Assembly (NCBI RefSeq): GCF_900113245.1
Contig: NZ_FOOQ01000002.1
Coordinates: 656,881-720,880 of the forward strand
DNA length: 64,000 nucleotides
DNA from: Halopelagius inordinatus
Lineage (GTDB): Archaea > Halobacteriota > Halobacteria > Halobacteriales > Haloferacaceae
Reading direction: 5' to 3'
A program made the position numbers and the translations under genes. This document shows positions 27,962-50,208 of this stretch, piece by piece. Numbering within the stretch: position 1 is the stretch's first letter; each line of letters begins with the position of its first letter. Under the pieces are notes generated by a model. The model was not told the DNA's origin and did no database searches. It saw nothing but the letters and a program-made list of their open reading frames with translations.

Positions 27962-28570
27962 ATGGAGTACACTAGTTCTCTCGACCGAGCGTTCGAGGAT
28001 CTCCCGGACCGCTCGCAAGAAGAGTCTCGGCTCACGATTCCCGACCCGGAGGGGGAGACGGACGGGGCGTTCACCCGACTGACGAACCTCGGCGCCATCG
28101 CCGACGCCCTCTCTCGGAAACCCGAACACGTCCACAGTTTCATCCAGCGGACGCTCGGGACCAGCGGGCAACTCGACGAAAAGCGCGCGCGGTACAGCGG
28201 GTCGTTCTCGGTGGCCGACTTCGACGAGGCCCTCGAAGACTACGTCGCGGAGTACGTCACCTGCTCCGAGTGCGGACTGCCCGACACCCGTCTCGTGACC
28301 GAAGACGGCGTGGACATGCTCCGCTGTGAGGCCTGCGGTGCGTTCCGCCCCGTCCAGAAGCGCTCCTCGCAGTCGCAGACGCAGTCCCAAGAGGCGGTCG
28401 AGGAGGGTCGCACCTACGAAGTGAAGATCACCGGAACCGGTCGCAAAGGCGACGGCGTCGCCGAGAAAGGCAAGTACACGATATTCGTCCCCGGCGCACA
28501 GGAGGGGCAGGTCGTCCGCATCATCATAGAGAACGTGAGCGGCACCCTCGCGTTCGCCCGCCTCGTCTGA
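27962..28570 (+). CDS. translation initiation factor aIF2 beta with TRAM domain
   Basis: A 202-residue subunit of the archaeal initiation factor that delivers Met-tRNAi to the ribosome. After the helical N-terminus the core FIQRTLGTSGQLDEKRARYS is followed by a C2-C2 zinc ribbon (Cys101, Cys104, Cys122, Cys125). The final 55 residues (YEVKITGTGRKGDGVAEKGK ... VRIIIENVSGTLAF) are a TRAM-type nucleic-acid-binding domain. The fusion is known in haloarchaea. It would join aIF2 alpha and gamma, which are not in the window. TATA-like spacing fits a leaderless start. Confidence 0.95.
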   Translation: MEYTSSLDRAFEDLPDRSQEESRLTIPDPEGETDGAFTRLTNLGAIADALSRKPEHVHSFIQRTLGTSGQLDEKRARYSGSFSVADFDEALEDYVAEYVTCSECGLPDTRLVTEDGVDMLRCEACGAFRPVQKRSSQSQTQSQEAVEEGRTYEVKITGTGRKGDGVAEKGKYTIFVPGAQEGQVVRIIIENVSGTLAFARLV

Positions 28571-46515: not shown

Positions 46516-46600
46516 GCGGGGGTGGCTGAGCCAGGCCAAAAGCGGCGGACTTAAGATCCGCTCCCGTAGGGGTTCGCGAGTTCGAATCTCGTCCCCCGCA
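46516..46600 (+). tRNA. tRNA-Leu (anticodon UAA)
   Basis: A class II tRNA of 85 nt. The acceptor 7-bp stem is gcggggg (46516-46522) with cccccgc (46593-46599) and discriminator A at 46600. Anticodon stem gcgga (46545-46549)/tccgc (46557-46561) encloses the loop cttaaga with anticodon TAA at 46552-46554. The long variable arm and the T-arm (gcgag-ttcgaat-ctcgt) are intact. No intron and no encoded CCA. Confidence 0.97.
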
Positions 46601-47020: not shown

Positions 47021-49291
47021 ATGAGAGAGTTTGACGTTCTTCCGCGTTTCGTCCGGAAGAGTCAGTTCAGGAAGTACGCTCTCGTTCTCCTGTTGCTCGT
47101 CGGTCTGATGGTGGGCTACGGGTTCTACACCCAAGAGCGAGTGGGCGAGGAGTTGACCCGAAACCAGCACGGCCAACTGCAGATGACGGCGGAAGTGGAG
47201 GCGAAGGAACTCGGCCGGTGGATAGACGCAAACGAGAACCGAGCGCGGATGCTTTCGGAACACCGAGGGCTCCAGACCGACGACCCGGACGAAGCCGACA
47301 GGGCGCTTTTGGCGGAACTCGGACAACTCCCGAGCGACGTCTACGCCATCCACTACGTCGACATAGGGGACGGGAGCGTCGTCCGCAGTACCGCGAGTCA
47401 GATGGAGACCAAGACGCTCTCGGACGCGGACGTCGAGTGGGTCGGCGGCGACCGGTCGATGTCGCAGTCGACGGACGTGGCGATGACCGAAGTGTACCGC
47501 AACGGCGGACTCGAACTCGTCGGCTTTCTCAGCCCCGTTCCGGGCACCGACAGGGGCGTGATGGTAGTCCTCGACGCGACGCAACACGCGAAAGCCTTTC
47601 GCGAACCGGTCGAGGGGACGCGCACGCAGGTCGTCCGAACCGACGGGACGGTGTTGCTCGACCGGTACGGCAAGAACGTCCTCACGCAGTACCGCGAGAG
47701 CGAGACGTCGCCCGGACTGGACGCCGCAAACGAGGATAGCAGTCTCGACGGTGGCGGCGTCGTGGAACGGTCGTCCGACGACAGGGTCGTCGCGTACGCA
47801 CCCGTCGGCGGAACCGACTGGGTGGTTCTCGTGCAAGCGCCCCGAGAGAACGTCTTCGCCATCCTGACGGAGGTACAGACCAACCTCGTCGGCCTCATCG
47901 GTGCGGCCGTCTTCGGGTTCGTCGTCGTGGGACTCACGCTCGGCCGAAGCACGGTGGTGTCGCTTCGACGCCTCCGGACGCGGGCGGACCGACTCTCCGA
48001 GGGGGATTTAGACGTCGACCTGACGACCCGGAAGGTAGACGAGTTCGGGTCGCTCTACGCGGCGTTCGACGAGATGCGCGAGTCGCTTCGCGAACGGATT
48101 CGCGACTCCGAGGAGACGGCGTCGGCACTCGAACGGGCGGCCACGGAGTACGGCGAGACGATGGACGCCGCCGCCGAGGGCGACCTGACCGTCCGCATGG
48201 ACGCCGACGCGGCGGGCGACGCCGAGGCGATGGCGACTGTCGGCCGCCGGTTCAACGCGATGATGGACGAACTGGAGGCGACGATGGCGGAGGTGGCGAA
48301 CTTCGCGGACCGGGCGGCCGCCGCGAGTGCGCGCGTCGACGCCGGGGCGCGAGAGGTGACGACGGCGAGCGAACAGGTGAGTCGGTCCACGCAGGAGATT
48401 TCTGACGGGTCCGCTGACCAACTCGACGCGCTACGGACCGTCTCCGACGAGATGAGCGAACTGTCGGCGACCGTCGAGGAGATAGCCGCCTCCACCGACG
48501 AACTCTCCGAACTCTCAGAACGGGCGGCGACCCGCGGCGACGACGGGCGAGAGGCCGCGATGGCGGCGCTCTCGGAGATGGAAGCCATCGAATCTCGCGT
48601 CGAGACGGCGACCGAACGGGTCCGGCGTCTCGACGACGAAGTCGCGGACATCGAAACCGTGGTCGGCCTCATCGACGGCATCGCAGAGCAGACGAACATC
48701 CTCGCGTTGAACGCGCAGATAGAGGCGGCGCGGGCGGGCGAGGCGGGCGAGGGGTTCGCCGTCGTCGCAGAGAGCGTCAAAGACCTCGCAGCGGAGACGG
48801 CGGCGGCGACGGACGACATCGCGTCGTCTATCGATACCGTCCGCGACGCGACGGAGGACACCGTCTCCGAGATGGACGCGATGAGCGAGAGAGTCGACGA
48901 CGGCGCGAGTACGATAGCGGAGGGAGCCGAAGCCATCCGCGAGACGGTCGATACCGTCGAGGACGTGGACGTGGGCGTCCAGTCTATCGACGACGCGACG
49001 GATTCGCAGGCCTCCTCGACGCAGGACGCCGCCGTGCAGACGGACGACGCGGCCGGAATCGCCGAACAGACGCACGCGGAAGCCGAACGCGTCGCCGCCG
49101 CCGCCCGACAGCAGACGGCGTCGATGGACACCGTCGCAGACGAGATAGACACCCTCTCGGAACGGACGCACGAACTCGTCACGTTGGTCGAGGGGTTCGA
49201 CGTCGACTGCGACGGGGACGGCGGGGCCGCGACGGGCGAGACGGATTCGGAGGTGACGGCGGACGCAACGACGGCACTGGGCGACGACTGA
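47021..49291 (+). CDS. methyl-accepting transducer (Htr) with dCache, HAMP and signalling domains
   Basis: A 756-residue membrane receptor for taxis. First helix near 20-36 ([20 protein letters not shown]), then an extracellular sensor (about 40-285) of the dCache type, second helix near 290-310. HAMP-like linker [20 protein letters not shown] follows, with a further HAMP-like segment, and the cytoplasmic tip is [19 protein letters not shown]. Glu/Gln-rich methylation heptads flank the tip. It would signal through CheA/CheW to the archaellum, and the ligand is unknown. No che genes are adjacent, as often for scattered haloarchaeal transducers. ATG 47021. Confidence 0.93.
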
Positions 49292-49451
49292 CGACTCTCT
49301 GCGATTCTTTCGTTTGTACCGGTTCCTTCGTGCGAACTGCAGGGAGAAGCCGTCGGACGCGGGCCGAGTCGGTTCGAGTCCGCATAGAAGACGTCTCTCG
49401 GGGACGAGACGGTATCGTCGGCCGACGGAGTCGGAACTCGGCGCGTAGTAA

Positions 49452-49550
49452 GTGGGAAAAGGTAGCGGCCGGCCGGGAACAGCCCGGCGAGCCGCTGCCG
49501 CCCTGAATTGGTCCCCGCTGACGCTTCGGCCCTCCAAAGCGAAGCGTCAC
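49452..49550 (-). ncRNA. candidate structured RNA with two strong hairpins
   Basis: Minus-strand reading gives two stable stems. Stem A is 10 bp perfect (tgacgcttcg 49519-49528 with cgaagcgtca 49540-49549) and an 11-nt loop. Stem B pairs agcggc (49464-49469) with gccgct (49491-49496), and inside gccggg (49472-49477) with cccggc (49483-49488) around a 5-nt loop. A TATA-like cttttaag (49573-49580, minus strand) lies about 25 nt upstream of 49550 and a T-run (rev. of aaaa, 49457-49460) marks the end. No ORF reads through. This looks like an own transcription unit. Family not recognised; it does not match RNase P or SRP RNA. Confidence 0.55.
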
Positions 49551-49704
49551 TTTCTGGGTTGGCTGGGAGCGACTTAAAAGTGCCGCACTAGCCTCGAAAG
49601 AGCCCCGATATCCGATTCGTCCGAGGAGCATCCACGCCGGAAGACCGCGGGCGGCGCGGTTCGGACACGAGGGGCTTTTGCCCCGTCGAACCCTTCTATC
49701 GACC

Positions 49705-50208
49705 ATGAGCGACGTATCCGGACGCGTTCGGCGAGCTTTCGGCGACCACAACTCCTTCGAGAACAGAGACGGCGGGACGTTCGAATCGACGGCGACGGCG
49801 TTCGACGGCCGCGTCGGCGTCAAAGAGGACGGCGCGGAGGTGACGTTCGACGTGACGGTTCGCGTGCCGATGCTGGACGCCGTCGTCGAAGGCGACGTGG
49901 CCGACGTGGTCGAAGACGGGTGGTACGAGACGTTCGCACTCCGCACGGAGGACATCGGCGGCGTGACGAAAGCCGACCGCGACCTGACGGTGGACGTGCG
50001 AAGAGAGGGCGAGGAGGCGGTGGTCGAAACCTCGTTCAGCGACGTGAACGAACGCCGCGGCGTCGACGACGCCGGCGCGGTCATCGACTACGTCGAGGGG
50101 ACGTACGTACAGGGCGTCATCCCGGGGTACGAGTACACCGACCCGGTGGCGAGTCTCATCAGTCGGGCGAGCGAAGCGGCGGGCAGCGATAGCGGAACGC
50201 CTCTTTAA
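49705..50208 (+). CDS. DUF5813-like conserved haloarchaeal protein (167 aa)
   Basis: Reads MSDVSGRVRRAFGDHNSFEN, FDGRVGVKEDGAEVTFDVTV and WYETFALRTEDIGGVTKADR, a beta-rich layout. I recall this as the DUF5813 family found across haloarchaea, with unknown function. ATG 49705 matches the family start; upstream MPRRTLLST is unlikely to be used. Divergent from the candidate RNA. Confidence 0.65.
   Translation: MSDVSGRVRRAFGDHNSFENRDGGTFESTATAFDGRVGVKEDGAEVTFDVTVRVPMLDAVVEGDVADVVEDGWYETFALRTEDIGGVTKADRDLTVDVRREGEEAVVETSFSDVNERRGVDDAGAVIDYVEGTYVQGVIPGYEYTDPVASLISRASEAAGSDSGTPL

Follow-up and report, generated by a model that had tools for sequence, protein, structure and literature searches.

The closest described relative of the RNA gene considered here is sRNAhts10 (HVO_2213s) of Haloferax volcanii, a 161 nt RNA that was found by sequencing and prediction at positions 2078656-816 of the chromosome, on the forward strand. 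The part of the source available to us lists it in 18 other haloarchaeal genomes, attributes mild effects to its deletion, such as a longer lag on acetate, and states that, of the 27 sRNA genes studied in H. volcanii, 22 are confined to this species (PMC3956466). A second small intergenic RNA of this species, rancRNA_s194 (PMC6104027, seen in part), is of similar length (97 nt) to the RNA described below. Identity of the two was considered and rejected, as rancRNA_s194 lies at another locus (HVO_2011s2) and is reported as not conserved, whereas the RNA presented here is class-wide.

The window, by which we mean the whole stretch of 64,000 nucleotides of Halopelagius inordinatus that was analyzed, carries its RNA gene between a DUF5813 gene and a methyl-accepting chemotaxis receptor gene. 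Haloferax marisrubri and the window share the gene order CetZ ... TrkA, Lrp, DUF5813, RNA, receptor. The part of PMC10927574 that we could consult gives HVO_2204 as CetZ1, and by a count of predicted ORFs from CetZ1 the RNA falls between 2213 and 2214, in the forward orientation. Given the same gene order and strand, together with this count, the window therefore holds the counterpart of sRNAhts10, an identification made by gene order and strand and not by the H. volcanii sequence. Both RNAs occupy the same place, from DUF5813 to the receptor gene, and lie on the same strand, but the H. volcanii RNA is listed at 161 nt and that of the window is inferred to be about 95 nt long. That the syntenic place in H. 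volcanii yields a known transcript (PMC3956466, seen in part) supports the reading of this stretch as an RNA gene.

An earlier note, made from the letters of this stretch, had described a minus-strand element with a perfect 10-bp stem, a second stem with an inner 6-bp helix, a TATA-like element about 25 nt upstream and a terminal run of T. All four features are present, and their positions are collected in Table 1 with those of the neighboring genes.

Table 1. Parts of the small RNA gene and its two neighbors, in window coordinates.
Feature	Position	Strand	Remarks
Small RNA, ~95 nt	49455..49549	-	Start inferred from distance to TATA box, end from T-run
TATA box TTTTAAG	49573..49579	-	~26 nt before inferred RNA start
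Hairpin P1	49519..49549	-	10 bp; arms 49540-49549 and 49519-49528
P1 loop CUUUGGAGGGC	49529-49539	-	Purine-rich
Unpaired linker GCGGGGACC	49510..49518	-	Nearly invariant; departures confined to some of the diverged extra copies
Hairpin P2	49454..49503	-	Inner helix GCCGGG/CCCGGC; sequence free, shape kept
T-run TTTT	49457..49460	-	Presumed terminator
DUF5813 gene	49705..50208	+	Divergent neighbor; Pfam PF19130, E 2.2e-55; synteny
Methyl-accepting chemotaxis receptor gene	47021..49291	+	Convergent neighbor; Pfam PF00015 and PF00672

The tail that follows the linker, AAUUCAGGGCGGCA, extends into P2, the lower stem of which starts in the AGGGCGG of the tail. The remark in the earlier note that no ORF passes through is not literally right, as three mechanical ORFs cross the stretch (49179-50084 and 48515-49537 on the minus strand, 49330-49506 on the plus strand), and all three lack support as genes. 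Single-base differences separate the copies in the 5' part of the P1 loop (CUUU in 50, CUU in 27 and UCU in 23 of 111 unique copies), and thus no reading frame is conserved across the RNA. For the RNA there is no Rfam 15 family at or above gathering, nor a credible weak match. The sole Rfam and ARAGORN match of the window is a tRNA-Leu (taa) at 46516-46600.

Folding by itself is weak evidence for an RNA gene, and it is unconvincing here because the minus strand of the RNA stretch has a fold z of -2.58 and the plus strand does equally well (-2.64). In an alignment of 22 rows chosen for divergence (A3), the pairing of P1 is kept in 93.1% of cells, compared with 34-44% for slid controls. Changes on both sides occur in 5 of the 10 pairs, a number reached by 2 of 500 shuffles, and in 11 cells, a number reached by none of 500. 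The compensatory changes in relatives, the absence of which the earlier note had named as refuting the RNA, were thus sought and found in P1. The pairs at the two outermost positions of this helix are frequently open, in 8 and in 7 of the 22 rows. P2 was followed in 111 unique copies, which is the number to which 152 copies were merged for duplicates of one place fetched twice. The fold energy of P2 averages -30.0 kcal/mol, compared with -18.8 kcal/mol for chimeras that join halves of two copies, and of 500 such swaps 2.6% attain the median of the true folds; its loop is U-rich (59%, compared with 26% for the tail). A stable hairpin at the 3' end with a T-run behind it, the pattern of an intrinsic terminator, is found throughout much of the set, with z < -2 for the P2 region in 97% of the copies and a T-run at the P2 end in 90 of the 111. 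Upstream, 100 of these copies have TTWA in the expected interval, compared with 1 copy in each of two control intervals. As the 111 copies had to match the core through the end of GGGGACC, the identity of the linker among them is partly by construction and its variation is understated; variation is seen in the diverged extra copies L152, L153, L182 and L183. Judged from these alignments, P1 conserves both pairing and letters, and P2 pairing only. Because the letters of P1 are kept while P2 of the same molecule drifts, P1 is held by more than folding.

The distribution of the gene is wide within the haloarchaea. With a DNA query of 201 bases the RNA was detected in 55 of 60 relatives. R1, a covariance model for its 5' part (57 positions, built from 22 rows), has a match in 387 of the 391 class genomes, and in 375 of the 377 of good quality. 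The class genomes that lack a match belong to two families (f9 and f11), and a search at loose threshold of six genomes of f2, f9 and f11 gave nothing better than E 0.04. In a sample of 196 genomes of the phylum, 33 match R1, 32 of them in the order of the window; the single match outside this order is weak (E 0.0048 per genome), which is about the chance expectation over so many genomes. Copy counts at E near 0.003 include chance matches, such as L154 and L166. An exact pattern scan of viral contigs for the RNA gave 0 matches, and blastn of phages with the RNA core gave none. The proposal of the earlier note, a small RNA with structure that is encoded by itself on the minus strand, is strongly supported by the spread of the gene and by the retention of its TATA box and T-run. 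Comparison shows a class-wide, duplicated haloarchaeal RNA gene with a kept structure.

Genomes outside the family of the window mostly have one R1 match and those within it mostly two. Among the fetched loci, the commonest setting comprises DUF7117, the RNA, often an Amphi-Trp gene and then a PadR gene on the strand of the RNA. This PadR adjoins the RNA in most families and is unusually conserved, being 76-94% identical to the reference across families (e.g., L108:8600-8893). We take the PadR-side locus as the probable ancestral RNA locus. The second locus, from DUF5813 to a receptor or ferredoxin gene, occurs among the fetched loci only in the family of the window, with the DUF5813 gene as its syntenic marker, and the copy in the window is a duplicate special to its own family. 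The other copy of the H. inordinatus genome sits at the ancestral locus (G000:C2:56062-56118; L031). Some fetched loci, for instance L005, L006, L028, L043 and L120, have neither setting.

Further diverged copies are found on plasmids and at scattered sites, and these relocated copies retain P1 and mostly the linker, with the tail lost. Five plasmid-type loci (L048, L152, L153, L174 and L187) have a TRAM-domain gene downstream of the RNA and on its strand, 415-423 nt from the RNA start; in L055 and L150 the TRAM gene is 2.3 and 3.6 kb from the RNA. The TRAM proteins of the five loci are just 54-68% identical to that of L150, which served as query, and since the spacing is nonetheless kept, the arrangement is old and probably one arrangement by descent. 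Chance nearness is unlikely because the six genomes checked have only 3-11 TRAM matches each. The arrangement is absent at the chromosomal RNA loci scanned. The window itself has a weak TRAM-domain match with one TGA in frame at about 28349-28570 (G000:C2:685229-685450; E 1.3e-6), far from the RNA.

Two other associations of the extra copies were considered. The gene of a 325-aa protein, P325 (L150:5262-6236 and relatives), is close to the RNA in L047, L048, L055, L150, L151, L152, L174, L182 and L187, and is partial in L047 and L048. The protein is found in 68 plasmid records, has no Pfam match and belongs to PHROG 35116, of unknown function; a search of phages for P325 gave no match. A constant link to the RNA is unsupported, with the RNA at E < 0.1 in 0 of 10 further P325 loci. 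On some plasmids (L195, L196, L200) P325 is near TBP or TFB genes. Two extra RNA copies lie inside BREX loci, one near BrxC (L188:3548-3604) and one between PglX and BrxA (L189:4968-5024). A general link to BREX defense is also unsupported, as among 30 BrxA loci examined, out of 63 genomes with BrxA, the RNA is in the flanking sequence covered for one, which is the same place as L189.

We consider it somewhat better than an even chance that the gene encodes a stand-alone, class-wide haloarchaeal small RNA, with its own TATA box and a hairpin and T-run end, the 5' domain of which docks a conserved partner in trans. Transcription would proceed from the TATA box and end at the hairpin plus T-run, with P2 serving as terminator and stabilizer. 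P1 with its loop UUGGAGGGC and the linker GCGGGGACC would together form one sequence-specific docking surface, through which the RNA would act in trans. The retention of P1 and most of the linker in copies that have moved and lost the tail argues for this docking role. The partner would most likely be an RNA-binding protein, in an RNP or with the RNA sequestering the protein, and a target RNA paired by loop and linker is less likely. CsrB and RsmZ are protein-binding RNAs with purine-rich loops. The RNA of the window resembles them in the display of a purine-rich motif in a hairpin loop and in possible sequestration, but has no more than two such motifs; for H. volcanii, the portion of PMC6104027 available to us reports that CsrA is absent.

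An alternative is antisense regulation, in which the exposed loop, rich in purines, and the linker, rich in G, would pair with C-rich sites of several mRNAs and alter their translation or stability. We regard it as possible but unlikely. Like seeds, the loop and the linker stay unpaired and nearly without variation, and the genome has the complement of the linker at four further positions. These four sites, however, share no evident setting at gene starts, and the exact complement is barely more frequent than the reversed control, with 6 occurrences in the genome, two of them at the RNA genes, versus 2. A search for long complements of the tail or the linker gave, besides the two RNA genes, one match with 2 mismatches, and a long antisense target of the tail was rejected. 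Moreover, a seed leaves the conserved letters of the P1 stem unexplained.

We give a low chance to a specific version of the docking model, in which the 5' domain would be a class-wide handle for a TRAM-type RNA chaperone in a housekeeping RNP, with plasmids carrying a diverged pair of RNA and TRAM gene by which they tap or mimic this RNP. In methanogens, proteins with a single TRAM domain bind RNA and have chaperone activity, as stated in the accessible part of PMC8576121. The TRAM protein as partner is a lead and not a result, drawn from the gene neighborhood of the plasmid-type copies only.

An improbable alternative is an RNA linked to the ribosome, which would aid ribosome assembly or tune initiation, its loop GGAGG pairing with CCUCC at the 16S rRNA end and its linker with GUCCCUGCU in 16S rRNA. 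In accordance with such pairing, CACCUCCU is found at the 16S end and AGCGGGGAC can pair over 9 bases, including one G-U, with 16S rRNA at position 1149 of the rRNA contig, and ribosome-bound sRNAs are described for Haloferax in the parts of PMC6104027 and PMC12482152 that we could consult. Runs of this kind are, however, reached by 55-98% of 200 shuffles against the one 4658-base rRNA contig. More doubtful again is a DNA element, in which the inverted repeat would be the operator of a regulator such as the neighboring PadR and the RNA reading would be secondary. P1 is indeed an inverted repeat and PadR adjoins the ancestral copy in most families, but the asymmetric loop and linker are as conserved as the arms, the TATA box at fixed distance, P2 and T-run are all kept, and the syntenic H. 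volcanii place gives the transcript cited above.

A guide RNA of the H/ACA type, suggested by the earlier note, or of the C/D type, in either case of unusual form, is highly improbable: the RNA shares with H/ACA guides the build of a small archaeal RNA from hairpins, it is transcribed on its own and haloarchaea possess guide protein machinery (PMC2584109, seen in part), but P1 is a continuous 10-bp helix without the internal loop of a guide pocket, no ANA box follows P1 (GCGGGGACC stands there instead) or P2, whose flank varies, neither a C box RUGAUGA nor a D box CUGA was read by eye in the 95 nt, the sequence of P2 is unconserved, complementarity to rRNA is not above shuffles on the one 4658-base contig, and no Rfam family matches. 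A kink-turn or k-loop, as bound by L7Ae, is not evident by eye in the predicted fold.

The docking of a conserved partner by the 5' domain, which we favor, has to be set against the mild phenotype of the published single hts10 deletion (PMC3956466, in the part available). The DUF5813-side copy is present in 12 other Haloferax genomes, and a second copy is found in this genus at the PadR locus (L034, L107). Because Haloferax has two copies, as in H. marisrubri (L097, L034), a single deletion could not show the role, and the second paralogue may explain the mild phenotype.

The open-licence literature, as far as its text was accessible, holds no description of this RNA family, its consensus, structure, paralogue or class-wide spread; the definition of the family is new, and the first detection is not. 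In summary, the haloarchaea hold a class-wide RNA with a nearly unchanged 5' half and no Rfam family, in contrast to the 22 of 27 sRNA genes of H. volcanii described as species-confined in the accessible part of PMC3956466. The family has a paralogue in the genetically tractable model genus Haloferax, and its role is thus directly testable.
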